A DNA stretch of 64,000 bases from the NCBI RefSeq assembly GCF_013373795.3, contig NZ_CP088022.1:4402001-4466000 (forward strand), read 5' to 3'. A program made the translations under genes and the position numbers. Positions within the stretch are counted from its first letter, which is position 1; each line of letters starts with the position of its first letter. This DNA is from Bradyrhizobium quebecense. Its GTDB lineage: Bacteria > Pseudomonadota > Alphaproteobacteria > Rhizobiales > Xanthobacteraceae. Under the pieces are notes generated by a model, which did no database searches, was not told where the DNA came from, and saw only the letters and a program-made list of their open reading frames with translations. Shown here in pieces: positions 9,679-52,514 of this stretch.

Positions 9679-10122
9679 TCAGCGGCCGGCTGCTGATTCG
9701 AGCGTCTTGTCGAGTGTCCTGGCCTTGGCGGCCTTGCCGGCGGTCGCCTCGACGAACTTCCAGGCGTCGCGGAGCTCGGTCAGGCTGGCAATGATGCGCC
9801 GGAAATTCTCCCTGGCGTGCGGCCGGCCGTAGGAGCGCAGGCACGCCATGATCAGCGCATTGTAGGTCCGGAACAGGCGGTCGGCCATCGCGCCGCCGCG
9901 GGTGACGTCGAGATGGTGGCTCAGGCCGCGCAGGATCGCGGTCGCCCGCGTCAGATAGGTATGCCCTTCCTCGAAGCGCTTCGCCTCGTGCGCATCCAGC
10001 GCCTTCTGCAGCAACGTGATGGCGCCGTCGCACAGCATCACCACCGCCTTCAGCGGCGGGACCGCCACCGCGGCGGATCGATAGGCATTGTTGGCAAGGT
10101 AGGCCGTAGCATTCTGGGTCAT
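9679..10122 (-). CDS. fliS: Flagellin export chaperone FliS
   Basis: FliS binds the flagellin C-terminus and prevents premature polymerisation in the cytoplasm. The 147-residue helical product has the FliS features YLANNAYRSAAV near the N-terminus, MLCDGAITLLQKALDAHEA, and the long second helix (RATAILRGLSHHLDV..GGAMADRLFRTYNAL). Its ATG overlaps the fliD stop as TAATG, giving translational coupling. The order fliC-fliD-fliS is the classical one. Confidence 0.88.
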   Translation of the reverse strand: MTQNATAYLANNAYRSAAVAVPPLKAVVMLCDGAITLLQKALDAHEAKRFEEGHTYLTRATAILRGLSHHLDVTRGGAMADRLFRTYNALIMACLRSYGRPHARENFRRIIASLTELRDAWKFVEATAGKAAKARTLDKTLESAAGR

Positions 10123-11828
10123 TATTTACTCGATGATGCGTTCAGGAGGGCACTCAGGTAGCCCAGCGTGTTGTTCGCGCTTTCGATGGCGGCCTGATAA
10201 TTGGCGTATTGAAGCTGCAGCTGCGCCTTGAACGTCGCCGCATTGCTCTGGATGTCGCTGACCTGGGACTGCAGATCGGTATCGCGCGACTGCAGGTTGG
10301 TGATCATGGTCTGTAGCTGACCGCTGCTCCCGGAGTTGGTTTGCGCGAGCTGATAGAGTTGTGCCGCAAGCCCGGACGATGACGTCACGGTGATCGATTG
10401 CGAAGTCGAGCCGGTGTAGGTGAATGCCATGCCGGCGTAGATCGTGCCCGAATTGCCGATGATGGTGTTGCCGACCACCGAAAAGCCGGAACTGTCGCCG
10501 CCGACCGAGGCGCCGGTCAGCGTGCCGGTCGAATCCACCGTCACATCGAGCGTGAACGATTGCGGCGACGTGCCGGTGTTGACGACGTTGAGCTGGCTGG
10601 ACGAGGTCGTCGTCTGCGCGGACAGCAGCTTGGTAACGCCGGCCAGATTTTGCGTCAGCACGGTCGACAGCGTACCGGTATCGAGCTGCAGCTCGTTGTT
10701 CTCGTTGAACGACAGGCCGAGGTCGGCCATCGTCATTCCGCCGACGGAGCCGCTAAGCACCTGCTGAAGCTGGGTCATGATATCGCGCATCGTGCTGTCG
10801 CCGAACAGCACCGCGCTCGATGCGGCGGTGCCGTCGGAATTCTGCGCGGACTGCGCGATCACCTGGTCGCGAAATGCGTTGTAGTTGGTAACGAAGGTCT
10901 GCAACGCTGACGTGATCTGGCTGGTGTCGGTCGAGATGCTGATGTTCAGGCTGGTGCCGCTGGGCGTCGGCTGCAGCAAATCGAACGTGACGCCCGAGAG
11001 AACGTCGGAAATATCGTTGGTGTTGCGGGTGAGCGCGATGCCGTCGAGGGTGAATTCCGCGGATTGCGCCTTCTGCAACACGTCGGTGAACGCCCCCGAA
11101 GTATCGGTGACCCCGAGCTTGTTCAGGATGTCGTCGCCGGATGTCGATGAATAGGTGATGTTTGCGGCGTCCTGGGTCCCCGTCAGCACCATCTCATAGG
11201 ACCCGCTCGACACCTGGACGATAGAGGCCTGAACATTGGTCGCCGAGGTCTGGGCATTGATGGTGTCGACGATATCCTGCATCGACATGCCGCTGGTGAT
11301 CGAGATCGCCGTGCTGCTGCCGCCGGCGAGGCCCAGCGAAAACGTTCCCGAATAGCCGAGTGCGGTCGAACTGCTCGACTGCGAAGCGCCGATCACTTTC
11401 TGCGCGGTTGCGAGCTGGGTGATCTGGAGCGCGTGATCGCCGGTCGCCGAGCCGCTGTTGACGCTCATCGACAGCGCCGAGGAGGCGCTGACGTCGCCGG
11501 TGGACGAAATCGTCGCCGAACGTGTGGCGAACGCATTGGTGGCGATCGAGTTGATGATCGACGTGCTGAGCGACGACAGCCCGGTTGCCAGCGTCGACAG
11601 CTCGGTCTGTAGCGACTGATAGGCGGTGACCTTGGCCTGGTTCGCGCTAATCTTGGTGGTGATCGTGGTCGCCGCCGTGAGCTTGGCGTTGACTTCGGCA
11701 TCGATCAGGGCAGTCCAGTCGATACTGGCCGAATTGGTCGTGCCGGTCGTGGTCACCGTGCTGGCAGAGCTGGCGGAACTCGACGATGTCGCGCCTGATG
11801 TGCTCGAGGTGGCGCTGCTAACCGTCAT
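10122..11828 (-). CDS. fliD: Flagellar filament cap protein FliD (HAP2)
   Basis: FliD caps the filament tip and inserts flagellin subunits. The 568-residue product has a low-complexity Ser/Thr N-terminus, a FliD_N-like region (IDWTALIDAEVNAKL..ITTKISANQAKVTAYQSL), the FliD_C region (SAEFTLDGIALTRNTNDISD), and a long C-terminal coiled coil (DTDLQSQVSDIQSNAATFK..LQLQYANYQAAI). It lies between flagellin and fliS. Length and order agree with a complete, functional cap protein. Confidence 0.9.
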   Translation of the reverse strand: MTVSSATSSTSGATSSSSASSASTVTTTGTTNSASIDWTALIDAEVNAKLTAATTITTKISANQAKVTAYQSLQTELSTLATGLSSLSTSIINSIATNAFATRSATISSTGDVSASSALSMSVNSGSATGDHALQITQLATAQKVIGASQSSSSTALGYSGTFSLGLAGGSSTAISITSGMSMQDIVDTINAQTSATNVQASIVQVSSGSYEMVLTGTQDAANITYSSTSGDDILNKLGVTDTSGAFTDVLQKAQSAEFTLDGIALTRNTNDISDVLSGVTFDLLQPTPSGTSLNISISTDTSQITSALQTFVTNYNAFRDQVIAQSAQNSDGTAASSAVLFGDSTMRDIMTQLQQVLSGSVGGMTMADLGLSFNENNELQLDTGTLSTVLTQNLAGVTKLLSAQTTTSSSQLNVVNTGTSPQSFTLDVTVDSTGTLTGASVGGDSSGFSVVGNTIIGNSGTIYAGMAFTYTGSTSQSITVTSSSGLAAQLYQLAQTNSGSSGQLQTMITNLQSRDTDLQSQVSDIQSNAATFKAQLQLQYANYQAAIESANNTLGYLSALLNASSSK

Positions 11829-11891: not shown

Positions 11892-12716
11892 TTAGCCGAG
11901 CAGCTTCAGCAGGTACTGCGGCATCTGGTTCGCGGCGGTTTCCGCCGACACCGCGGCCTGGGTCTTCACTTCGGCCGACGACAGCGTCGCCTGCTCGGAA
12001 GCGATATCGACGTCCTTGATCGCCGAGTTCGCGGACTGCAGGTTCTGGGTCTGGGTCGAGATCGAGTCGGCGCTGAAGTTGAAGCGCGATTCCTGGGCAC
12101 CGATCTCGGCGCGGGCGGACGACACGGTGTCGATCGCGCTGTCGAGGGCCGACATTGCGCTGGTGGCGCTCGACAGGCTGGAGACGTCGAGCGAGGTCAC
12201 GCCGAGCGAGGACGCCGTCAGGCTGGTCAGCGTGATCGTGATGGTGTCGGCCGAGGTCGAGCCGACCAGCACCGAGACGCCCGAGGAGAACACGCTCGAA
12301 CCGTCGAGCAGGCTCTGGCTGCTGTAGCGGGTGCCGGAGGCGATGGAGTCGATTTCACCCTTGAGCTGCGTGAATTCCGAGTTGATGTAGGCGCGGCTGG
12401 AATCGGCCACGGTGCCGGAGGCGGACTCGGAGGCCAGCGACTTCATGCGGGCCAGGATGTCCGAGATGTTGGACGCGCCGCCGTCGGCGGTCTGCAGGAT
12501 CGAGGTCGCTTGCGCCGCGTTGGTGGCGGCCTGCTGCAGCGTCGTGATGTCGGAGGAGATGCGGGTCGAGATCGCGAGGCCGGCCGCGTCGTCGGAAGCG
12601 GAGGTGATACGCGATCCGCTCGACAGCTTCGACAGCGCGCTGGTTTCCTGCTGCGAGTTGATGTTGAGGTAACGGACCGCTGAGTTGGCGGCCGTGTTGG
12701 TGGAAATTGCGGGCAT
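11892..12716 (-). CDS. Flagellin, short (lateral-type)
   Basis: This 274-residue flagellin forms the filament. The N-terminal D0/D1 domain (RYLNINSQQETSALSKLSSG, SASDDAAGLAISTRI) and the C-terminal D0/D1 domain (ARAEIGAQESRFNFSADSI, VKTQAAVSAETAANQMPQ, ending in LLKLLG) are intact. The variable D2/D3 domains are almost absent. The size is near that of the short flagellins I know from Bradyrhizobium lateral flagella, rather than the longer subpolar ones. It leads the fliD-fliS group, and a glycan-type cassette lies just beyond the sigma factor gene. Confidence 0.92.
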   Translation of the reverse strand: MPAISTNTAANSAVRYLNINSQQETSALSKLSSGSRITSASDDAAGLAISTRISSDITTLQQAATNAAQATSILQTADGGASNISDILARMKSLASESASGTVADSSRAYINSEFTQLKGEIDSIASGTRYSSQSLLDGSSVFSSGVSVLVGSTSADTITITLTSLTASSLGVTSLDVSSLSSATSAMSALDSAIDTVSSARAEIGAQESRFNFSADSISTQTQNLQSANSAIKDVDIASEQATLSSAEVKTQAAVSAETAANQMPQYLLKLLG

Positions 12717-12856: not shown

Positions 12857-13558
12857 TTAGCAGTCGGTAAACGCGCCGCGCAGGTCGCGCTCGTGCCGCT
12901 TGAGCAGCTCGCGCAGCTGTTGCCGCCCGCGCTTCAGCAGCGACTCGACCGCGGCCACGGTCGTATCCATCACCTCGGCGATCTCGCCGTTGCTCATGTT
13001 CTCGTGGTAGGAGAGGATCACCGCGACACGCTGCTGCTCGGGCAGCCGCTGCATCGCAAGCTCCAGAAGATTGCCGATCTCGTTGCGCTCGATGACGGTA
13101 GAAGCGTCGAGCTGGGTGTCGGCGACCTCGGGCACGACATCGACATTCTCGGTGCGCGGCTTGCGGCGCAGGTCGATGCAACGGTTGCTGACGACGCGAT
13201 AGAGCCAGGTCGAGAACTTGGCGCGGCCATGCTGCCAGCGGCCACGATGCGTCCAGACCTTCAGCATCGTATCCTGCACCACGTCTTCAGCATCTGCGAC
13301 GTTGCCGACGATGCGCAGCGCGATCGCGTAGGCGCGATCGACATGGCGTTCGACGAGAGCACGAAACGCCGCCTCGTCGCCGGCGGCGAGGCGGTCGAGC
13401 AGCTCCTTGTCCTCGTCCTGGATCTCGACGGTGTCGAGCGGGCCCGCATCGGCAACCGTGGGGACGTTGCTCCAGGGAGTGGCCGCTTCGACCGGCGCAG
13501 CCGCGGCCGCCGTGGCTTCCACCTCGACCGCTGCCATCACATCAAGCGCGTAACTCAT
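12857..13558 (-). CDS. ECF-type RNA polymerase sigma factor
   Basis: This sigma-70-family factor redirects RNA polymerase to specific promoters. The product has about 233 residues, with an acidic/Ala-rich N-terminal extension of about 50 residues before the core. Region 2 is seen in FRALVERHVDRAYAIALRIV..AEDVVQDTMLKVW and region 4 in MQRLPEQQRVAVILSYHEN..IAEVMDTTVAAVESLLKRG. No region 3 is present, as in all ECF factors. It sits immediately upstream of flagellin on the same strand, so control of the flagellar block, alone or with the membrane protein at 9062-9583, is suggested. Start MSYAL at 13558 is chosen; the frame opens 13 codons earlier. Confidence 0.88.
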   Translation of the reverse strand: MSYALDVMAAVEVEATAAAAAPVEAATPWSNVPTVADAGPLDTVEIQDEDKELLDRLAAGDEAAFRALVERHVDRAYAIALRIVGNVADAEDVVQDTMLKVWTHRGRWQHGRAKFSTWLYRVVSNRCIDLRRKPRTENVDVVPEVADTQLDASTVIERNEIGNLLELAMQRLPEQQRVAVILSYHENMSNGEIAEVMDTTVAAVESLLKRGRQQLRELLKRHERDLRGAFTDC

Positions 13559-14066
13559 CCGCCGCTCTCCAACCAACGCCGCAAGCACACATCGCATGCG
13601 GCTTCTGAGCGTTGAACGGAGGGGTTGAGCAAACCAGGCGAACTTTTTTCGTTATTTTTCAAATGCTTAGCTGGATTTTTTTGCCGACCGCCCGGCAAAA
13701 GCTGCCGCTCCGCGGAGGCGCAGGCAGTAATTCTACGGAGTCTGGAGCAGTCGTTCAGCATCGCCTTGCATGCCTGCGGGAGAATTCGTCGCGCCGGAAA
13801 ACGCCGTTGTCACATCAACTAACGCCACGCGAACACATGCATGCGCGGAGCATGCGAGTGATCCATCGCCGTTGGTCGCCAACTTGCATTCGACGATTGC
13901 GACTAGGCAATTTTTTCCGAATCACCATTTCGACGTTATCGGATTTTTTGAATCTGTCAGTCGCGAAGCGCGCGTTTTCGAATCCCGCATCAACTTTTTT
14001 GAATCATCGCGCCTGATTTGTCTCACGCAGGCGTTCAACGCATGAGGACTGGCGGGAATTTTGCGC
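13559..14066. promoter_or_regulatory. AT-rich divergent intergenic region
   Basis: About 500 bases lie between the ECF sigma gene and the divergent cassette. Short frames here look non-coding. The right half is clearly AT-rich against the GC-rich genome. It carries repeated TTTTTTGAATC-like strings: two exact copies, near 13943 and 13995, and a weaker TTTTCGAATC copy near 13974. Such tracts could be binding sites for a nucleoid-type or flagellar regulator and should include both promoters. Confidence 0.4.
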
Positions 14067-16571
14067 ATGACGATCATGACGGTCGACGCAACGCGTCGAG
14101 CGCAGAATGTTTCTGCATGTTCATTCGATGTTTTCGATACATTTCTGTTGCGTGCCTGCACGACGCCGGATGGCGTATTTGAAAGGGTTTTTCAGCTTTC
14201 CCGCATTGCTGAAAAATTTTCGGACATGTCCGTCAGTTTCGTTCAGCATCGAATCCAGGCTGAGGCGCGTGCGCGCAAGCTCGCGCTGGAGCGGTGCGGC
14301 TCCACTGAAGTGCGCATCGCCGACATCTATAAGTACTTTCCGTTCAGGCTGTTCGGCCTGAGCCGCGAAGCGTTGAGCGACCTCGCGCAGATCGAGTTCG
14401 AAGCCGAGCTCGAGCTGTGCCGCGCCAATCCGGAAATGCTCGAGCAATATCTGGACATGAAGCGCGGCGGCTTTCGCGTCGGCTTCATCTCCGACACGTA
14501 TTGGAGCACCGAGCAGCTCGCGCAATTGCTGCGCTCCTGCAGCCCCGGACTGACCTGGGATTTCCTCTACGCATCCTGCGATCACGGCTCTGGCAAGAGC
14601 GAAGCGCTGTTCGAGGCCTATCTCGCCGAGCAGGGCATCGATGCGGCGAGCTCGTTCCATGTCGGCGACAATCACAACGCCGATATCAAGGGCGCCCGCC
14701 GTCACGGCATCCGCCCGCGCTACTATCCGCAGGCCAGCGCGGCATTGGCATCGAAGTTTCAGCGCGAAACGTCGATCTTCGAATTGTTGTGGCCCGATCA
14801 GCCGTCGCGGCTCGATTGCGGCGCCCGCACGCTACGACGCGCGGTGACGGCACGCAGCGCAGGGCATTCTCCCGCTTTCAACCTCGGTGTGACCGTTCTC
14901 GGTCCGGTGATGGCGGCGTTCGACGCCTTCATCGAAGCACAGCGCGCTGCGCTGGCGCGCGAGGGCGCGCGCGTTGCGATCGGATTCCTCGGCCGCGACG
15001 GTCTGCTGCCGTATCGCGTCTGGCAGGCGAACCATGGCGAGACCGGCGCCTATGTCGAGATCAATCGTCGTGTCAGCCTGGTCGGGTCCGCCGATACGCT
15101 CGAACCTCTCAGTGAGCTGCTGGGCCGGGTCGTCAAGATCGACGCGGCGACCTTTGTCGATATCGTCAAGGTGCAGCCTCCGGCGGTGATGAAGTTCTTC
15201 GCGCAATATCCTGACGGCATTGCGGGCGGCCGCGAACTCGCCGACGCCCTGCCCGATCTGATGGACCCGCGCGAGATCACCGACATCGCTGCCGGTGTCC
15301 GCACGCGCCTGCTCGCTTATCTTCGGGCGAAGATCGCGGATTTCGACGGCTGCACCGACCTCATCCTCGTTGACCTCGGCTATTCCGCCAGCGTGCAGAA
15401 GTCGCTGCGGCGCATCTTCGATCGCGAAGGAATTCGCTTCCGCCTGCATGGCGCCTATCTGCTGACGCTTGACGATGCCTTCGACGACATCGCCGACAAC
15501 GACACCGCAGAAGGCCTGATCTCGGATCGCATCGTCACGCCGCACGTCAAGCGCATGTTGATCCGCAACGTCGCATTGCTGGAGCAGCTTTGCTGTTCCG
15601 ATCAAGGATCGGCACGCGACTACCGCGGCGGTGAGGTGTTGCGCGAGGGCGACCAGCGCCCGGCCGCTCAGCTGGCGCTGGCGAACGAGGTGCAGTCCGG
15701 GACGCTGGCCTATGCGTCACACGCCCGCGAATTGGCATCGCGCTATGCATTGCAGCCCGACACGGACCCCATCGTTGCCGCACGCTGGGCCGCCGCCGTG
15801 CTCGGACGTCTCCTGCTGCTGCCCGACGATGATGAACTCGTGCTGCTCGGCGGCATCAAGCATGACGTCAACCTCGGCACGCAGGCGCTCGCGCCGCTGC
15901 TCGACGCCGGCTTCATCAATGATTGCATCGTCGCCCGCGGCCTCTCGACCGCCTGCACGGCTCCGGCGCCGCCGATGTGGCTGGCCGGCAGCTTTGCCGC
16001 GTTGTCGCCGTCACACGCCTACCTCTACACATTGTTCGGCGCCAATCGCCTGCCCGCGAACGTGTTCGGCGAGGCGCAATGCGGGACGCTGCAGGTCGGC
16101 CTGTTCGGGTCGGACGGCCAGGCGTCGCTGGAAGCCGTCAGCGTCTATCATACCGGGCTGGGCGACCTCCGCCTGCGGATTCCATTGTCGCGCCGCATGG
16201 CGGTTGCGACCATCGCGCTGCCGCTAGCAAAGCTCACCCGCGCCGGGATGCTCCACGGCATCACGGTCCAGTACGGCGAGAGCGCCGCGAAGGCGGTGGA
16301 GAGTTCGAACGTGAAGGCGATCGCCGAGGGACGGCTGATCGATGCCGGCCTCGAGCGGAGCGACCGCCAGTTTCGTGCGACCACCGAGGATGGCATGCTG
16401 TTGATCCCCGTCGACGGCTTCGAGGACGATGTTGCAATCTACACCGTCGCGTTGACTGCCCTCGACCATGACCGCATCCTTGCGGTCGAGGACCGCGACG
16501 GTAACCGGGCCCCCTCGGCCACGCTGACCTGGCGCAGCGCCAACAGTGCGCAGGCAACCATCGGCAACTGA
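14067..16571 (+). CDS. Large HAD-superfamily protein, probable glycan/sugar-phosphate enzyme
   Basis: The N-terminal 230 residues are a HAD domain. Motif I is FDVFDTFLLR (Asp at about 21 and Thr replacing the usual second Asp region as DxFDT), motif II is FISDTYWS, motif III uses the Lys in GSGKSEA, and motif IV is HVGDNHNADIKGA. The remaining 600 residues are not recognised but look globular. HAD proteins of this long type are often found in polysaccharide and glycosylation loci. Here it starts a three-gene plus-strand set with a glycosyltransferase-like gene and a formyltransferase gene, divergent from flagellin. The ATG at 14067 is chosen; a TTG lies two codons upstream. A role in flagellin or surface glycan modification is inference. 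Confidence 0.65.
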   Translation: MTIMTVDATRRAQNVSACSFDVFDTFLLRACTTPDGVFERVFQLSRIAEKFSDMSVSFVQHRIQAEARARKLALERCGSTEVRIADIYKYFPFRLFGLSREALSDLAQIEFEAELELCRANPEMLEQYLDMKRGGFRVGFISDTYWSTEQLAQLLRSCSPGLTWDFLYASCDHGSGKSEALFEAYLAEQGIDAASSFHVGDNHNADIKGARRHGIRPRYYPQASAALASKFQRETSIFELLWPDQPSRLDCGARTLRRAVTARSAGHSPAFNLGVTVLGPVMAAFDAFIEAQRAALAREGARVAIGFLGRDGLLPYRVWQANHGETGAYVEINRRVSLVGSADTLEPLSELLGRVVKIDAATFVDIVKVQPPAVMKFFAQYPDGIAGGRELADALPDLMDPREITDIAAGVRTRLLAYLRAKIADFDGCTDLILVDLGYSASVQKSLRRIFDREGIRFRLHGAYLLTLDDAFDDIADNDTAEGLISDRIVTPHVKRMLIRNVALLEQLCCSDQGSARDYRGGEVLREGDQRPAAQLALANEVQSGTLAYASHARELASRYALQPDTDPIVAARWAAAVLGRLLLLPDDDELVLLGGIKHDVNLGTQALAPLLDAGFINDCIVARGLSTACTAPAPPMWLAGSFAALSPSHAYLYTLFGANRLPANVFGEAQCGTLQVGLFGSDGQASLEAVSVYHTGLGDLRLRIPLSRRMAVATIALPLAKLTRAGMLHGITVQYGESAAKAVESSNVKAIAEGRLIDAGLERSDRQFRATTEDGMLLIPVDGFEDDVAIYTVALTALDHDRILAVEDRDGNRAPSATLTWRSANSAQATIGN

Positions 16572-16629
16572 TTTGTCCGCCTGATCTGGCCGGCCCGCTC
16601 GTAGAAGGTTAACGAGGGGTAGTGCGGGC

Positions 16630-17988
16630 ATGATTTCGGCTGACACGGTGCAAGCGGACGGCTTGCAGACGAATTTCGACCAATTGCTGGCGGCGAACGG
16701 CATCCGGATGAGCGCTGCACAGCGCCGGCGGCTCGCATGGCTGTCCGAACGGCTCGGACGCGCGACCATCCACCAGGCCGGTTCCGTGCCGGGGCGGGAC
16801 CATGGCGTCATCATCCTCGTCGAGCCGCCGAGCGGCCCCGCCGCCGAAATCCTCTATCGGTCACTTCGCGCCGATTGTGCGGTCGTCGTCCCCTTCGGCG
16901 AAAATCCCGGCTTCGATTTCCTGAAGTCCAAGCTGACCGACTTCGGGACGATCGGGCCGAGCTTCGATGGCCCGCACGAGATGTGGTGGGGCGGCCTCAA
17001 CTGGCGCCCGATCGCGCCCGCGGAAGGCTCCCGATCCGACTCGGCGCTGCGCGTGGTCTCCTGCTATCCCCGCGCCTACGGCGACGATCATGCCGGCGCG
17101 CTCCGCGAGAAGCTGGCCGAATTCGACATCGCCTGCGACATCGTGCCGATCGACGCCGCGGATGGCGAGCACATGCGCGCGTCCGAGAAGTCTGCCTTCA
17201 TGCTGCGGATGTGGCAGGAGCACCGCGAGCCGCTGCTCTTCATCGAGGCCGATGCGACGCTCAGCGAACCACCATTGCTGCCGTCCTCCCTCGAATGCGA
17301 CATCGCACTCCACAAGTGGAACCGGTGGGAGATGTCGGCGCGCACTTTGTATCTCGGCCGCACCCTGGCCGCCGAGTCGCTGCTGCGCAACTGGCATCAC
17401 ATCGCGACCGCCTATCCCGCGGTCTGGGAGGGCTACCTGCTCGACCAGGCCTGGAGCCTGACGTCGTCGCAAATGGCGCTCGACACCGCGTGGCTGCCGC
17501 GCTCGTACCATGCCCCCGCCGAAGATGCCGGCACGCCCCGCCACACCACGGTCGTCCACAATCTGCCGACCGATAACAGCGACCTTGGGCCCGATGCCGA
17601 ATTCGGCGTCACGATGCGGGCCGCGCGGCGCGCCAGCCGCAGCGGCGGCCGCGACGCCATGATCGTGATCAAGTCGCAGGCGGCCTCGAACAACGCGATC
17701 ACCGTGATCATGCGCGATATCGCGACCAGCGACGCACGCGAAATGGCTGCCAGCATCGAGGCCGTCACCGGCGCGTTCGCCGCCGATTGCGGAGGGTTCG
17801 GCCGGCTCGAGCTCGCGCTTTGCCCCTGGCAGGACGATATCCGCGCGGCAAAATCGGCAGCCGCCAGCGCGAACAGCCGGATCATCGAGATTGCGCCCTG
17901 GCAGGCATTGCCGGCCGATCTGTTCCGCACCGTGGGTCAGTCCCACGATGCCGGCAGCGTCGTCGTCATGGCCGGGCAGCGCGGCTGA
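16630..17988 (+). CDS. Glycosyltransferase-like protein (putative)
   Basis: This 452-residue soluble protein has no signal peptide. Its central part (YPRAYGDDHAGALREKLAEF, then SEKSAFMLRMWQEHREPLLF followed by IEADA) resembles nucleotide-diphospho-sugar transferases, in which a hydrophobic strand ends in an acidic DxD-like IEADA motif. The flanking regions are not recognised. It lies 58 bases after the HAD gene and 41 bases before the formyltransferase gene on the same strand, so co-transcription is likely. The transferase call is a fold-level guess from the pattern and neighbours. Confidence 0.5.
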   Translation: MISADTVQADGLQTNFDQLLAANGIRMSAAQRRRLAWLSERLGRATIHQAGSVPGRDHGVIILVEPPSGPAAEILYRSLRADCAVVVPFGENPGFDFLKSKLTDFGTIGPSFDGPHEMWWGGLNWRPIAPAEGSRSDSALRVVSCYPRAYGDDHAGALREKLAEFDIACDIVPIDAADGEHMRASEKSAFMLRMWQEHREPLLFIEADATLSEPPLLPSSLECDIALHKWNRWEMSARTLYLGRTLAAESLLRNWHHIATAYPAVWEGYLLDQAWSLTSSQMALDTAWLPRSYHAPAEDAGTPRHTTVVHNLPTDNSDLGPDAEFGVTMRAARRASRSGGRDAMIVIKSQAASNNAITVIMRDIATSDAREMAASIEAVTGAFAADCGGFGRLELALCPWQDDIRAAKSAAASANSRIIEIAPWQALPADLFRTVGQSHDAGSVVVMAGQRG

Positions 17989-18029
17989 TCAACGGTACAA
18001 TAACCAGGCAAGAGAAGGACATCGACATC

Positions 18030-18752
18030 ATGAAGACCATCATCCTTCTCACCGGCGTCGCCAACCAGCAATTCGCGCTCACCGAGCTGTTGAAGGCGCA
18101 CAATCCGGCGCTGTCGTTCCGCTGCGCGGTGACGGCCGAGGACCTCGCGGCGATCGAACCCGAGGTGTTGTGCGAGGCCCGGCTGCTGGCGTTCACCACC
18201 AGCGTCATCGTGCCTGAAAGCATCCTGGCGGCGCTCGGCCATGGCGCCTACAATTTCCACCCGGGCCCACCGCAATATCCCGGCTGGGCGCCGGCACATT
18301 TCGCACTCTATGACGGTGCGCGCACGTTCGGCGCGACAGCCCATCTGATGGCCGCGCGGGTCGATTCCGGTCCGATCGTCGGGGTCGAGGCCTTCATCAT
18401 TCCTGACAAGATCAGCGTGCGCGGGCTCGAGCAAATTGCCTATGTGCGGCTTGCTTATCTGTTCTGGCGGATGTCGCGCGATCTCGCTCGCGATCCCTCG
18501 CCGCTGCAGGAACTGGAAATCGCCTGGTGCGGCATCAAGAGCACCCGCCAAATGTACCGCGACATGTGCGAGCTTCCCGCCGGCATCAGTGCCGGCGAAC
18601 TGGCTCGCCGAATCCGCGCCTTCCACGACGACTTCCGCGCTATCCCGCTAACCATCTCCGTGCACGGCATCCGCTTCCAGCTGGCGACGACCGCCATGCA
18701 GACACCCGAGGCACCGCAGGTGGCATCGCCGCCGCTCGCGGCGGCGTCATGA
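18030..18752 (+). CDS. Formyltransferase (N10-formyl-THF dependent type), probable sugar or amine formylase
   Basis: This 240-residue protein has the formyltransferase catalytic core: Asn75 and His77 in YNFHPGPPQYPG, and Asp112 in VDSGPI. These match the Asn-His-Asp triad of methionyl-tRNA and sugar formyltransferases. It is much shorter than methionyl-tRNA formyltransferase and lacks its C-terminal tRNA-binding domain, so a small amine substrate such as an amino-sugar nucleotide is likelier. Its neighbours are HAD and glycosyltransferase-like genes, with flagellin beyond. The start has AGAGAAGGA upstream at 18011-18019. The substrate is unknown. Confidence 0.75.
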   Translation: MKTIILLTGVANQQFALTELLKAHNPALSFRCAVTAEDLAAIEPEVLCEARLLAFTTSVIVPESILAALGHGAYNFHPGPPQYPGWAPAHFALYDGARTFGATAHLMAARVDSGPIVGVEAFIIPDKISVRGLEQIAYVRLAYLFWRMSRDLARDPSPLQELEIAWCGIKSTRQMYRDMCELPAGISAGELARRIRAFHDDFRAIPLTISVHGIRFQLATTAMQTPEAPQVASPPLAAAS

Positions 18753-18783: not shown

Positions 18784-18831
18784 CGCTTGATCCTTTCGGA
18801 ACGCCGCTTCGCACTTCTCCGGGTCATGCTC
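18784..18831. repeat. Dispersed palindromic repeat, degenerate copy
   Basis: The sequence TTGATCCTTTCGGAACGCC followed by GCTTCGCACTTCTCCGGGTC matches, with changes, the repeat at 47291-47339. It lies between the convergent formyltransferase and cyclase genes. It may act as a weak bidirectional terminator. Confidence 0.5.
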
Positions 18832-21800
18832 TAATGCCGCCAGGGTTCACCCTGTGGATCGGCAAGCATTCCGTTCAGGAGCGCTTCGGCCCGATGTAGC
18901 AGCGGCTTCGTTCCACTGCTCGATGCAATCGCAATTGCCGCGCGCAACTTGTGCAGAATGGAAGTCCTGTCGTTCTCATTAGACGCCGGCGATACCGCCG
19001 CCTCTCCGAACAACGCCTCGGCTTCCAGACCGGAAAAGCCCTGCTGCCGCGCGGTATTTCGCGCCTCTCGCAGCATGTTCAACGCGGCTGGCGCATCGCC
19101 GAGCCGGCTCAGAGCCAGTGCCAGATAGATCGAGGTACGCAGCACGATCGAGGTATAGCTCACCGACCTGGCTACCTCTCGGGCTTCGACGAGCGTAACC
19201 CGCGCGTCAGCGAGACGTCCCTGTTCCAGATAGGCAATACCAAGATGGCAGGTGATGACAGGCACGAAGAGGCGAATTCCATACTTTTGCGTAATGGCAA
19301 AAGCGTCCTCCAGGACCGCCGCTGCTTCGCCAGGATTGCCCCGACTGAGCGCCAGACAACCACCGCTATAGCCGGCGCCAACGCGATCAAATGGCCTGTT
19401 GCTCTCATTGGCGATTGCCGTCGCGCGCTGATGAAACTCGGCCCCCATATCAATCTCACCCAAGGTCGTGTGGGTCACGCTTTTCATCATGCAGCACAGC
19501 AGCTCCAGGGTTTTCGGCGTCGTCCCGGGCGGCGCGCTGGCATCCGGCCCGGACAGGCGGAGGCAAGCCTGTCCCAGCATTTGCTCCGCGTCACGATAGC
19601 GCCCGGCAATGAAATAGGCCTGGCCCAGGCTGTACTGAGCCAGGTTGAGCCAACCCGGATTGCCCCACTCTCCCGCCAGACGGGCAACCTCCTCGCCGGT
19701 TTCGATCGCCTCGACCGGGGTGCCGTAGAAGTTCTGCGCCCCCGACCTGACCGCCATCGCCGCGACCTTCCGCCCGATATCGTCGATCGCGTTGGCGCGC
19801 TCCTCCGCGTCTCTTCCGAGATCGAACCATTCGGCGACCTTGCCTGCGCTCATGAAGGCCGTGCGCGCCTCGATGCGAAGGTCGACCGCATCCGCTTCGC
19901 GCGAGCGAGCGAACGGCGTCTTGTCGAGCGCGGTCATCGCGATCTCAAAGTAGTTGGCTGCGTCGGCAAATGCCGATCGTGCCAGGCTCTTCCGCGCGGC
20001 AGTTCTGCCGTAGCTGAAAGCTTTCTGCCAGTCCTTCGCTCGCATTGCGTGATAGCAGAGCCTGCTGGGTTCATCATGCGAGCTTCCATTGCCCTCCAAC
20101 GTCGCAAGAATGCGTGCGTGGACGCCTTCACGTACTTTTTCGACCATCGAGTCGTAGATGACCTGGCGGACCATTTCGTGCGGAAACTCGAGCACTCGAT
20201 CCGGCTCGATATCGATCTTCACCAGAAACTCCGAGCGGTCGAGAACCGCCAGGCAGCGCTGCAGCACGGGCTCAGGGAGACCGGACGCCTCGCGCAAGAT
20301 AACTTCCGTCGAGCGTGGGCCTAGCGCTGCCGCGATCTGCAACAGGGAGCGCTCCTCCCTCGATACCCGATCCAGACGCGCTGCGATGACTCCCTGGATA
20401 CTGCTCGGGATACCAAGCTCGCCGACCGGACGCGCCAGCGCCAGATCGCCCCAATGCCCCCGCAGAATCCCGCTGTCCTTGAGGCCCCGGCAGACCTCTT
20501 CAATGAAGAGTGGCACGCTGGCCGTATGAAGCACGACGCGGCTCTTCAGATCGGCCATGTTCGCGGACCGCCCCAAGATATCGTCCAGCATTTCCCGTCC
20601 GGCATCCTCGGCGAGCGACCGCAACGCGGCGATCTCGGCGTTGCAGCGCGCGATCCAGTCCGGAATGCCGTTGGGTCTGCTGGTCAACAACACCAGAAGG
20701 CTAGGTATCTGCAGCGACGCGAGCGCAGCGACAACGGCCTCGCTGGCGCGATCGATCCAGTGCAGATCCTCGACGAGGATCACCGTGCGCTGGCGGGCGA
20801 CCAGGCTCTCGAGAATCGCGCAGCTCGCGTCGCTGATCGCGCGGCCGCGCGCGTGTGGCTCCAGCTCGCCCCACTCTGGATCCGATATCGGACGATCCAG
20901 CACCGCATTGATGGCGGAACGCGCTATCCCGGTCAGAGTCGTCGGAGGCTCGGTCCGGATATCGGCGTCCGCCGCAGTCCCTTCGAGCATCGACAGCATG
21001 AGCGCCTTCAGCGCGCTGAACGGTGCACCTTGAAGATTCGGACTGCACTCTGCGTGGACCGGACGCCAGCCCTCGCGCTTGAGCTCGTCGACAAACTCGT
21101 GCACGAGCCGCGACTTTCCGATGCCAGGATCGCCAATCAAGAGCGCCGTCTGCCGGCTCGCCCCGGCATTTTGAGCCAGCTGCCTGAGCAACCCGGTCTC
21201 GTCCACGCGGTTGACAAACCGTGCAACGCTTCGCGCCCTGCGTACCCGCCAACTGGAGACATTGGTTGCGCCGGTCACACGGTAGATCGGCACAGGCTCG
21301 CTGAACCCTTTGAGTCGTTTGCGACCCAAATAGTCGAACTGGACATTGCCATCGGCGAGATGCTGACAAGCCTCGGACGCGTAGATCTGATTCGGTCCGG
21401 CGACCGCTTCGAGGCGCGCCGCAAGATGCTGCGCTGCTCCTCCGATCTCATAGACCTTGGAATATTCGCTGGCGACCATGTAGGTCACCACGCGCCCCGA
21501 ATGGAGCCCCACCCGAACCTGGAGCGCCGGATCGCCCAAGCCCCCGATACGTCGGACGAGTTCGATCGCAGCATGGCAAGCAAGCGGCGCGTGGTTGTCG
21601 TCAGCAATCGGGGCGCCAAATACCGCGGCGAGCCCATCCCCCAATTCCTTGCTGACGATGCCGCCGAACTGGCGCACTGCGCCGCGCATGGCGGCCAGGG
21701 CCGGCTCCAGGCGGGAGACCGCCTCTTCCGGATCCAGGTCCGCTACGAGCCCCGTGGAATCGACCACGTCGGCGCGAAGGATGGTTACAAATCGCTGTTC

Positions 21801-21929
21801 ACTGTCGGGATCGAGGCGCTTTGCTACGGCGGCACCGCATTGGGCGCACCAATTGTCGTCCGCTCCGATCGTCGATTGGCATGCAAAGCAAAGCATTCCT
21901 GCTCTCAAAGGCTGCTGCGGTCTCGCCAA
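18831..21929 (-). CDS. Adenylate/guanylate cyclase-AAA ATPase-TPR regulatory protein
   Basis: This 1032-residue cytoplasmic protein has four parts. A zinc ribbon (CxxC at 14-17 and 28-31) comes first. A class III cyclase domain follows (about 45-220), with FVTILRADVVDSTGL, KELGDGLAAVFGAP and VGLHSGRVV holding the metal-site aspartates. An AAA/STAND ATPase module has Walker A GDPGIGKS and Walker B TVILVEDLHWID. A long TPR-like helical C-terminus ends the protein. The helix that carries the transition-state Asn in true cyclases reads GGAAQHLAAR, so that residue appears changed, as in many members of this fusion family, and cyclase activity is uncertain. It is a single gene facing the formyltransferase gene. 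Confidence 0.85.
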   Translation of the reverse strand: MARPQQPLRAGMLCFACQSTIGADDNWCAQCGAAVAKRLDPDSEQRFVTILRADVVDSTGLVADLDPEEAVSRLEPALAAMRGAVRQFGGIVSKELGDGLAAVFGAPIADDNHAPLACHAAIELVRRIGGLGDPALQVRVGLHSGRVVTYMVASEYSKVYEIGGAAQHLAARLEAVAGPNQIYASEACQHLADGNVQFDYLGRKRLKGFSEPVPIYRVTGATNVSSWRVRRARSVARFVNRVDETGLLRQLAQNAGASRQTALLIGDPGIGKSRLVHEFVDELKREGWRPVHAECSPNLQGAPFSALKALMLSMLEGTAADADIRTEPPTTLTGIARSAINAVLDRPISDPEWGELEPHARGRAISDASCAILESLVARQRTVILVEDLHWIDRASEAVVAALASLQIPSLLVLLTSRPNGIPDWIARCNAEIAALRSLAEDAGREMLDDILGRSANMADLKSRVVLHTASVPLFIEEVCRGLKDSGILRGHWGDLALARPVGELGIPSSIQGVIAARLDRVSREERSLLQIAAALGPRSTEVILREASGLPEPVLQRCLAVLDRSEFLVKIDIEPDRVLEFPHEMVRQVIYDSMVEKVREGVHARILATLEGNGSSHDEPSRLCYHAMRAKDWQKAFSYGRTAARKSLARSAFADAANYFEIAMTALDKTPFARSREADAVDLRIEARTAFMSAGKVAEWFDLGRDAEERANAIDDIGRKVAAMAVRSGAQNFYGTPVEAIETGEEVARLAGEWGNPGWLNLAQYSLGQAYFIAGRYRDAEQMLGQACLRLSGPDASAPPGTTPKTLELLCCMMKSVTHTTLGEIDMGAEFHQRATAIANESNRPFDRVGAGYSGGCLALSRGNPGEAAAVLEDAFAITQKYGIRLFVPVITCHLGIAYLEQGRLADARVTLVEAREVARSVSYTSIVLRTSIYLALALSRLGDAPAALNMLREARNTARQQGFSGLEAEALFGEAAVSPASNENDRTSILHKLRAAIAIASSSGTKPLLHRAEALLNGMLADPQGEPWRH

Positions 21930-34802: not shown

Positions 34803-36320
34803 ATGGAAGCCGAGGTTGGGATGCTGGTGGTGGAGACGATTGCCAAGGTCCGTCGCGCCTATTTTGTTGATGGTCGTCCGATCAAGGCGATCTGCCGAGA
34901 ACTCGGCGTGTCGCGGAAGGTGGTCCGCAAGGTTATCCGTTCTCAAGCAACCGAGTTCCGGTACGAACGCGAGACGCAGCCGCTCCCGAAGATGGGGCCG
35001 TGGAGTTCCGAGCTTGACCGGCTGCTGGCGGCAAATGAGAGCAAGGCGGCACGGGAACGGCTGACGCTGATCCGGTTGTTCGAAGAGCTTCGCGGCTTGG
35101 GCTATACCGGCGGCTATGACGCGGTTCGTCGCTACGCGCGACGCTGGAGCCGGGAGCGCGGCGCCTTGACAGCATCAGCCTATGTGCCTCTGAGTTTTGC
35201 CCCCGGCGAGGCCTATCAGTTTGACTGGAGCCACGAAGTGGTCCTGCTGAGCGGGGTCACGGTGATCGTGAAGGTGGCTCACGTCCGGCTTTGCCACAGC
35301 CGGATGCTGTTCGCGCGGGCCTATCCGCGCGAGACACAGGAGATGGTGTTCGACGCCCATGACCGGGCGTTTGCGCTGTTCAAGGGAGCCTGCAGGCGCG
35401 GCATCTACGACAACATGAAGACCGCGGTGGAGACGATCTTTGTCGGCAAGGGACGCCTCTACAATCGCCGCTTCCTGCAGATGTGCAGCCACTACCTGGT
35501 CGACCCGGTGGCCTGCACGCCGGCGTCGGGCTGGGAGAAGGGCCAAGTCGAGAACCAGGTCGGGCTGGTCCGCGAACGCTTCTTCACGCCACGGCTGCGC
35601 TTCAAGACGCTGGATGAACTGAACGCCTGGCTACTCGAAAAATGCATCGCTTACGCCAAAGCGCATCGGCATCCGGAGTTTGCGGACCAAACCATCTGGG
35701 AAGTCTTCGAAGCCGAGCGACCAAAGCTCGTTCCGTATGCCGGCCGCTTCGACGGCTTCCATGCCGTGCCCGCCTCGATCTCCAAGACCTGTCTGGTGCG
35801 CTTCGACAACAACAAATACTCGGTGGCGGCGAGCGCAGTCGGACGCCCGGTCGAGGTCCAGGCTTATGCCGATCGCATCGTGATCCGCCAGGACGGCCGG
35901 ATCGTCGCTGAGCATCAGCGGTCCTTCGGGCGCGGCGAGACGACCTACGATCCCTGGCACTATGTGCCGGTACTGGTTCGCAAACCTGGCGCCTTGCGCA
36001 ATGGAGCTCCCTTCAAAGGCTGGGTGCTGCCAGCCGCTATCGAGCGGATCCGGCGCAGGCTTGCCAGCACCGACGATGGCAATCGGCAGATGGTCGACAT
36101 CCTCAACGCGGTGCTGACTGACGGTCTGCCCGCGGCGGAAGCCGCCTGTGCCGAAGCGCTCGGTCACTGCGTCCATTCCGCCGATGTCGTTCTCAACATC
36201 CTGGCCCGTCAACGCGAGCCCGCTCCACCGGCCAACATCATGACACCGGCTGCCCTGACGCTTCGCCATGCGCCGATCGCCGATTGTGCCCGCTACGACA
36301 ACCTCCGGAGGACCATCTGA
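34803..36320 (+). CDS. istA: IS21-family transposase IstA
   Basis: This 505-residue transposase has an N-terminal helix-turn-helix (IKAICRELGVSRKVVRKVIR) and a DDE integrase core (YQFDWSHEVVLL with the first Asp, RGIYDNMKTAVE with the second, GWEKGQVENQVGLVRE with the Glu). A C-terminal beta-rich region follows (FDNNKYSVAASAVGRPVEV). It appears intact. Its stop overlaps the start of istB, which is truncated, so transposition is not expected without a helper in trans. Confidence 0.9.
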   Translation: MEAEVGMLVVETIAKVRRAYFVDGRPIKAICRELGVSRKVVRKVIRSQATEFRYERETQPLPKMGPWSSELDRLLAANESKAARERLTLIRLFEELRGLGYTGGYDAVRRYARRWSRERGALTASAYVPLSFAPGEAYQFDWSHEVVLLSGVTVIVKVAHVRLCHSRMLFARAYPRETQEMVFDAHDRAFALFKGACRRGIYDNMKTAVETIFVGKGRLYNRRFLQMCSHYLVDPVACTPASGWEKGQVENQVGLVRERFFTPRLRFKTLDELNAWLLEKCIAYAKAHRHPEFADQTIWEVFEAERPKLVPYAGRFDGFHAVPASISKTCLVRFDNNKYSVAASAVGRPVEVQAYADRIVIRQDGRIVAEHQRSFGRGETTYDPWHYVPVLVRKPGALRNGAPFKGWVLPAAIERIRRRLASTDDGNRQMVDILNAVLTDGLPAAEAACAEALGHCVHSADVVLNILARQREPAPPANIMTPAALTLRHAPIADCARYDNLRRTI

Positions 36321-51300: not shown

Positions 51301-52514
51301 CTAGTGTCCCGAGTCACAAGTTCGCAATCGTAGATTCGCAGTAGGTTCGCGTCGCTGTGCCAAGGCTGGAGGCAGCAGCAGTGACGGAGGATCTGATGGC
51401 GGTCCGGCAACTTGCCTCCCTGACATTGAGTGATGAAGAGCGCGCCGAACTGAAGGCGCTGACGACGCGGCGGAAGACGGCGCAAGCGCTGGCTCTGAGA
51501 GCCCGGATCGTGCTGACCTGCGCGGAAGGCGGTCAAAACAAGGAAGTGGCGGCCAAGCTGGGCTTGGGCCGGTCAACGGTAGGCAAGTGGCGGCGGCGCT
51601 TTGTGGAGCGGCGCGTGGACGGGCTGCATGACGAGCCCCGCTCCGGGGCGCCACGTACGGTTGACGATGCCCGCATCGAAGCCATGATCGTGAGGACGTT
51701 GGAAAGTTGCCCCGAGAACGCCACCCATTGGAGTTCCCGCGGCATGGCGAAGGCCAGCGGCCTGTCGGTGTCGACGGTGCAACGCATCTGGCGGGCCTTC
51801 GGGCTCCAGCCGCACCGGCTAGAGACGTTCAAGCTCTCGACCGATCCAAACTTCGTGGCCAAAGTGCGCGACGTCGTGGGCCTTTACGTCTCCCCGCCGG
51901 AGCACGCCATCGTTCTCTGTGTGGATGAGAAATCCCAAATCCAGGCACTGGACCGCAGTCAGCCGATGCTGCCGATGCGTCCCGGCCAACCGGCCCGAAG
52001 AAGCCATGACTACACAAGGCACGGCACCACATCGCTGTTCGCCGCCCTCGACATTGCCAGTGGACGGGTAATCGGCAAGTGCTACGGACGCCACCGTGCT
52101 GTCGAGTTCCGCAAGTTCCTCGACGAGATCGAGGCTGCCGTGCCGCGCGACCTCGACGTCCATTTGATCATGGACAATTACGCCACGCACAAGACGCCAT
52201 TGATCCGAAGATGGCTCGCCAAGCGGCCCCGGTGGCACGTGCACCTGACCCCGACCAGTTCGTCATGGCTCAACCAGGTCGAGCGCTTCTTCGCACTCCT
52301 GACCGACAAGAAGATCAGACGCGGCATCTATCGGAGCGTTGCCGCCCTCCGGGCAGACATCGCTTCCTTCATCGACCGGCACAACGCCGATCCCAAGCCG
52401 TTCCGCTGGACTAAGTCCGCCGATGACATCCTGGCATCCATCGAACGCTTCTGCCGGTACAACGCTCCGCCAAATCCAGATTCGATATCGCGAACTTCTG
52501 GTCCACCACACTAG
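51301..52514 (+). mobile_element. IS630-family insertion sequence, complete
   Basis: The left end CTAGTGTCCCGAGTCACAAG and the right end (inverse of CTAGTGTGGTGGACCAGAAG) are imperfect terminal repeats of about 28 bases. Both ends lie in CTAG, consistent with the TA target duplication of IS630. One transposase gene fills the element, and its stop lies in the right repeat. Confidence 0.8.
51357..52514 (+). CDS. IS630-family transposase
   Basis: The 385-residue product has an N-terminal helix-turn-helix (NKEVAAKLGLGRSTVGKWRR) and the IS630/Tc1 DDE core: Asp in LCVDEKSQIQALDRSQP, Asp in LIMDNYATHKTP, Glu in SSSWLNQVERFFALLTDKKI. The frame is intact. An internal start (ATG at MAVRQLAS) is possible and would remove 13 residues. 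Confidence 0.9.
   Translation: MPRLEAAAVTEDLMAVRQLASLTLSDEERAELKALTTRRKTAQALALRARIVLTCAEGGQNKEVAAKLGLGRSTVGKWRRRFVERRVDGLHDEPRSGAPRTVDDARIEAMIVRTLESCPENATHWSSRGMAKASGLSVSTVQRIWRAFGLQPHRLETFKLSTDPNFVAKVRDVVGLYVSPPEHAIVLCVDEKSQIQALDRSQPMLPMRPGQPARRSHDYTRHGTTSLFAALDIASGRVIGKCYGRHRAVEFRKFLDEIEAAVPRDLDVHLIMDNYATHKTPLIRRWLAKRPRWHVHLTPTSSSWLNQVERFFALLTDKKIRRGIYRSVAALRADIASFIDRHNADPKPFRWTKSADDILASIERFCRYNAPPNPDSISRTSGPPH

Follow-up and report, generated by a model that had tools for sequence, protein, structure and literature searches.

A putative flagellin-glycosylation cassette of Bradyrhizobium centred on a predicted ribofuranosyl transferase

What is made by three genes that stand back to back with a small flagellin locus in Bradyrhizobium quebecense? 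The genes lie in the 64,000-nucleotide stretch analysed here (contig NZ_CP088022.1, positions 4,402,001 to 4,466,000; "the window") of a 9.17-Mb genome. They are a gene first labelled HAD (14067–16571, 834 codons), a glycosyltransferase-like (GT) gene (16630–17988, 452 codons) and a formyltransferase (FT) gene (18030–18752, 240 codons), all on the plus strand and separated by gaps of only 58 and 41 bases. Coordinates and Pfam matches agree with the first-pass annotation that the cassette diverges from minus-strand genes for a sigma factor, fliC, fliD and fliS, but the order in its title (formyltransferase, HAD, glycosyltransferase) is not that of the genes, among which the HAD gene is first and the formyltransferase gene last. 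Computation gave us the architecture, folds, residues and co-occurrence of the cassette and the loss of a catalytic triad among its relatives. At a probability of roughly 60%, we read it as a flagellin-glycosylation unit whose conserved core is a ribofuranosyl transferase dependent on phosphoribosyl pyrophosphate (PRPP), with N-formylation only in those species whose formyltransferase keeps its triad.

The gPRT-PRP family of enzymes was reportedly defined in a 2022 paper by Kelly and colleagues. By profile matches, predicted fold and active-site residues, the product of the HAD gene looks like a two-domain member of this family similar to Bcs3 of Haemophilus influenzae type b and to the Thermobacillus composti protein of PDB entry 7shg, both of which are matched by its two domains in profile and fold comparisons. 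The predicted PRP (HAD phosphoribose phosphatase) domain, residues ~15–217 (14109–14717), aligns with residues 386–592 of Bcs3 (CrpP) and 30–262 of 7shg; its FDVFDT motif (residues 20–25) aligns with FDIFDT of Bcs3, and only the first Asp of DxD is retained. The predicted gPRT domain, residues ~250–650 (14814–16016), aligns with 7shg 297–629 and with the CriT part of Bcs3 up to residue 820. A lone HAD phosphatase was rejected, since the match to Bcs3 and 7shg runs on into the PRT domain; the original HAD label thus describes one domain of a fused protein and not the whole. The PRPP-pocket residues of Bcs3 are R679, D680, R708 and E818, with which R310, D311 and R334 of the window protein are aligned, while its D436 falls in the column just past the end of the Bcs3 alignment and is paired with an Asp in 7shg. 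These four pocket equivalents are identical in 82 of 82 relatives, as are the phosphatase residues D143, K177 and D206, and D21 is conserved in 81. Public gene models of 781 amino acids fit, by length and coverage, a start at 14226, about 53 codons late, which our gene caller also picked; that start would leave out the phosphatase nucleophile (residue 21) and the FDVFDT motif.

Beyond these two parts the protein has a mostly beta C-terminal domain (residues ~660–800, 16044–16466; strands by DSSP), modelled at a predicted local confidence (pLDDT) of 73 and then 84–93 by ten-residue block, which falls outside the ranges of the VIA-align structure matches. This extra domain would suit a rival view, in which the protein is no more than a phosphatase, or is a transferase that has degenerated, and serves filament assembly structurally; the formyltransferase next door (below) is an example of triad loss within this unit. 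We consider such a role very improbable, as the PRPP-pocket equivalents are kept throughout the relatives and, of the 26 cassettes in which all 14 checked residues are readable, 25 have every one of them identical, the exception being a D24E change in genome G047.

The co-occurrence of the predicted transferase with the flagellin is tight. A flagellin match at the cut-off is present in 32 of 120 relatives, 30 of them Bradyrhizobium, the genus that also supplies the top named relatives of all three cassette proteins. The first-pass annotation had proposed asking whether the trio stays beside short flagellins in other genomes, and in these 30 genomes it largely accompanies the flagellin: the gPRT-PRP gene is found in 28 (absent from G065 and G049), the GT gene in 29 (absent from G049) and the FT gene in all 30, although G049 has only a fragment; cassette genes are split in three genomes (G004, G016 and G060). 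At the 12 loci of relatives with the full trio, gene order is kept and all are divergent from sigma-fliC-fliD-fliS (one, L038, has a split HAD gene), so the arrangement is not due to chance; a further locus, L042, retains two of the three genes. Since the cassette is tied to the short flagellin, this flagellin is its likeliest target. The same 120 genomes also hold partial gPRT-PRP matches (G015, G048 and G101), FT paralogues, and a 31% identical relative of the GT protein near flgK and a presumed flgL (G052). On a draft contig of G049 (L068, 16989–17910) a flagellin match (residues 1–228) abuts the end of an FT (residues 153–240) on one strand, a junction that is likely a rearrangement or an assembly fault.

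Might the trio instead modify another surface glycan such as lipopolysaccharide, capsule or exopolysaccharide, its place beside flagellin being inherited and without function? The characterised gPRT-PRP enzymes build O-antigens and capsules, as far as the parts of the accounts consulted go (PMC10299916, PMC11127046), and some relatives of the window protein lie among glycan genes (L128, L136). The tight co-occurrence with this one flagellin, together with the motility genes near relatives from other orders and from an Enterobacter, makes this quite unlikely.

Those relatives outside the genus came from two samples. Across the class, 13 of 385 genomes match the gPRT-PRP protein, the window's own included; in G162 the gene directly precedes a sigma factor and three flagellin genes, with a gene for a tetratricopeptide repeat (TPR)-glycosyltransferase near, and in G263 and G362 it adjoins a methyltransferase gene and a flagellin gene. 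In a scan of named genomes, for which the best 80 of 105 loci were taken, 72 have motility genes near the gPRT-PRP relative: 71 have motA, cheA, flagellin or flgK in their flanks (BLAST, one query each), and the 72nd, in Enterobacter sp. BIGb0383, has flgD, flgA, flgM, flgN and a chemoreceptor gene nearby. A methyltransferase gene occurs in 50 of these 80 loci and flagellin in 28–29. By their titles all but three of the 80 are presumably Sphingomonadales; the three are an alphaproteobacterial metagenome-assembled genome (MAG), a Phenylobacterium MAG and the Enterobacter. Because the alignment behind the scan had a flagellin-linked sequence at its head, and because the scan had no random-gene control, it describes a motility-linked lineage and not independent events.

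Several observations weigh against a flagellin-directed ribofuranosyl transferase. G065 retains fliC, the GT gene and the FT gene without gPRT-PRP; in G159 the gPRT-PRP gene lies among glycan genes (L128) on a different contig from sigma-fliC (L127), and six sigma-fliC loci (L117, L118, L127, L131, L133 and L134) have no adjoining gPRT-PRP gene. Distant or partial relatives in L136, L119 and L120 have no recognised flagellar gene around them, nor do 8 of the 80 named loci have a recognised motility gene (two, L244 and L266, are short contigs), and those 80 loci, nearly all from Sphingomonadales, are neither independent nor random. The model of the protein, built from a 36-row alignment, has a pLDDT of 75.7 overall and below 50 at residues 201–223 in the phosphatase part, and when superposed on Bcs3 in full length it deviates by about 23 Å (root mean square), so that its domain placement is unreliable.

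In the window the formyltransferase matches PF00551 at 39.8 bits (cut-off 26.1) and no second Pfam family above cut-off, and N75, H77 and D112 are all present, which bears out the earlier statements that it keeps the Asn-His-Asp triad and lacks a tRNA-binding domain. The triad can be read in 29 of the 30 cassettes (that of G049 is unreadable), and it is Asn-His-Asp in 7, Lys-His-Asp in 2 and Lys-Tyr-Asp in 20; that is, the catalytic Asn is lost in 22, 20 of which also lack the His. An N-formyl sugar therefore cannot be the common product, and formylation as the shared function was rejected. The altered copies measured, of 176 or 178 amino acids, are under purifying selection, their median dN/dS (nonsynonymous to synonymous rate ratio) being 0.177 over 171 pairs from 19 genomes; within this group gPRT-PRP has a median of 0.207 and the GT gene one of 0.204, each from 20 genomes. 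The input was 26 of the 30 genomes (without G065, G049, G016 and G060), and a length filter removed one of 20 altered FT genes. Decay as a pseudogene in the triad-less species is unsupported by these values, and the best explanation of the sequences is that in most Bradyrhizobium cassettes examined the protein would be a maintained pseudo-enzyme. Compared with the window, the 22 cassettes with an altered triad have flagellins 84–90% identical, whereas gPRT-PRP is mostly 62–67%, the GT protein mostly 54–60% and the FT 39–48% identical; variation thus lies in the enzymes, against a constant filament protein. The GT product exceeds no Pfam cut-off, and its model has the fold of a GT-A glycosyltransferase; the candidate for a metal-binding DxD-type motif in the window is EAD (206–208), and among 29 cassettes its last residue is Asp in 8 and Gly in 20.

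These facts bear directly on the proposal of the first-pass annotation that the cassette chiefly serves to put an N-formylated amino sugar on flagellin, with the other two genes assisting. There the FT would formylate a nucleotide-linked 4-amino sugar supplied by aminotransferases encoded elsewhere in the genome. The intact triad in the window fits this, as do formyltransferases reported in enterobacterial flagellin glycosylation islands (PMC4875605) and four strong matches among the 11 DegT-family matches in the strain's own genome, all of which lie outside the unit, the best being 36% identical to a PseC-like protein. The unit itself, as had been observed at the outset, is of three genes only with no sugar-synthesis gene, and no aminotransferase, among them, and the genome has no match to NeuB (PF03102) or to the MptE/Maf type (PF01973; among control genomes this model matched four archaea only, but it does detect Maf in L202). 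A pseudaminic acid route in this strain was rejected for want of a NeuB match, so with DegT aminotransferases but neither NeuB nor MptE/Maf a different amino sugar would be required. Since, in addition, most readable cassettes have lost the Asn while gPRT-PRP persists, we regard a formylated sugar as the main product as unlikely.

Relatives of the FT elsewhere in the class give partial support to that proposal. Twenty of 28 places were examined, with up to 11 genes around the FT (L203 showed none); flagellar genes are near it in 6 and absent from the other 14, a proportion that serves only as a yardstick for motility linkage and not as a random-gene control. L190 and L191 have flgK- and flgL-like genes, L190 (to which L191 is similar) also carrying FlaF, PseB-like and PseC-like genes by Pfam; flagellins are near the FT in L200, L201, L202 and L204, with Maf and FlbT in L202 as well; and in L065 a flagellin gene directly follows one further FT relative. 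Of the original suggestion of an N-formylated sugar on flagellin or a surface glycan, flagellin as the likeliest target thus stands, by co-occurrence and by these flagellar loci, and the formyl sugar as shared product does not. Other FT paralogues have different company: those of L049, L052 and L053 are beside or near TPR protein genes (L049 and L053, when scanned, gave a weak C-terminal ATP-grasp match), and those of L043, L044, L048 and L049 adjoin small Ser/Thr-rich proteins, possibly modification targets, which in L044, L048 and L049 match no Pfam family over cut-off. An FT relative with an extra C-terminal part (L063, 8925–10337) belongs to a glycan cluster, where it adjoins WbqC and has a DegT aminotransferase not far away.

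It is most likely, then, that the small flagellin receives a glycan from this cassette while in the cytoplasm and that PRPP-derived β-ribofuranose is the part common to most species examined; enzyme activity, order of steps, acceptor and linkage we infer as follows. Working in the cytoplasm, the gPRT domain would transfer ribose-5-phosphate from PRPP to a hydroxyl of the acceptor, and the PRP domain fused to it would strip the 5-phosphate to leave β-ribofuranose. The acceptor might be a flagellin Ser or Thr, or a first sugar put on flagellin by the GT-A protein, in either case before export; the GT-A enzyme would accordingly add another sugar or the first one. The FT would N-formylate an amino sugar only in the triad-keeping species, the window's included. 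With PRPP as donor, sugar-nucleotide genes would not be needed nearby. The boldest version of this reading, which we hold at clearly less than even odds, would tie filament decoration to the cell's PRPP pool without a nucleotide sugar. Such PRPP-fed ribofuranose addition is already known from capsules and O-antigens, and gPRT-PRP in flagellar loci of Bradyrhizobium, Sphingomonadales and one Enterobacter would give protein glycosylation a new donor and a new sugar. A pentose on flagellin would have a checkable mass (+132.04 Da), and the filament of these soil and root bacteria is one that plant immune receptors encounter. A second testable oddity is the FT, conserved even where it lacks the triad.

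The presumed target, fliC (11892–12716, minus; PF00669/PF00700), encodes a 274-amino-acid flagellin of FliC2 type and is followed on the same strand by fliD (10122–11828; PF07195/PF02465) and fliS (9679–10122; PF02561). The RpoE6-like sigma factor of the extracytoplasmic function (ECF) type (12857–13558, minus, 233 amino acids; PF04542/PF08281, with the longer frame 12857–13597 used in the Pfam scan) is separated from the gPRT-PRP gene by a 508-base divergent intergenic region (13559–14066). Across the 21 of 30 cassettes that were compared, this region has conserved blocks, including T-runs and blocks containing GAATC, but no clear promoter motif common to fliC and the cassette was found in these 21. 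Just downstream of the cassette is a gene for a 1032-amino-acid cyclase-AAA-TPR protein (18831–21929, minus), which has the same position in G069, G004 and G044 and was not found in the examined stretches of G010 and G070. Transposase-like genes (Mu-type C-terminal domain; DDE_3) lie on the plus strand in the window's right-hand half, at 34803–36317 and 51381–52511.

How does this locus compare with known systems? According to the part of the account consulted (PMC12826043, as for all that follows on Azospirillum), a Bradyrhizobium cluster of this kind shows synteny with the RpoE6/FliC2 cluster of Azospirillum, in which the small FliC2 flagellin is likely glycosylated. Like the window, that cluster has an ECF sigma factor, a small D0-D1 flagellin, FliD and FliS; it differs in that its sigma gene is elsewhere in the cluster, and its account names no divergent glycosylation cassette, "formyl" and "HAD" being absent from the main text. 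The Enterobacteriaceae flagellin glycosylation islands share FT genes with the window cassette, and their description (PMC4875605) has no words beginning haloacid, phosphoribosyl or ribos. Searches of open-licence PMC listings turned up neither an instance of ribofuranose on flagellin nor a flagellin role for gPRT-PRP. The Thermobacillus composti enzyme (7shg) is a polysaccharide ribofuranosyl transferase of the gPRT-PRP family, the known members of which serve complex carbohydrates such as O-antigens, and the paper on it has no word beginning flagell (PMC11127046). Close in architecture to the window protein is Bcs3 (CrpP-CriT; PDB 8a0c, 8a0m), where likewise a HAD phosphatase is followed by a PRTase-like ribofuranose-5-phosphate transferase, with the same FDIFDT/FDVFDT-type motif and equivalent PRPP-pocket residues. 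Bcs3, which polymerises a capsule, also carries CroT and SH3b domains, whereas the predicted enzyme of the window, encoded in a flagellar locus, has a different domain at its C-terminus.
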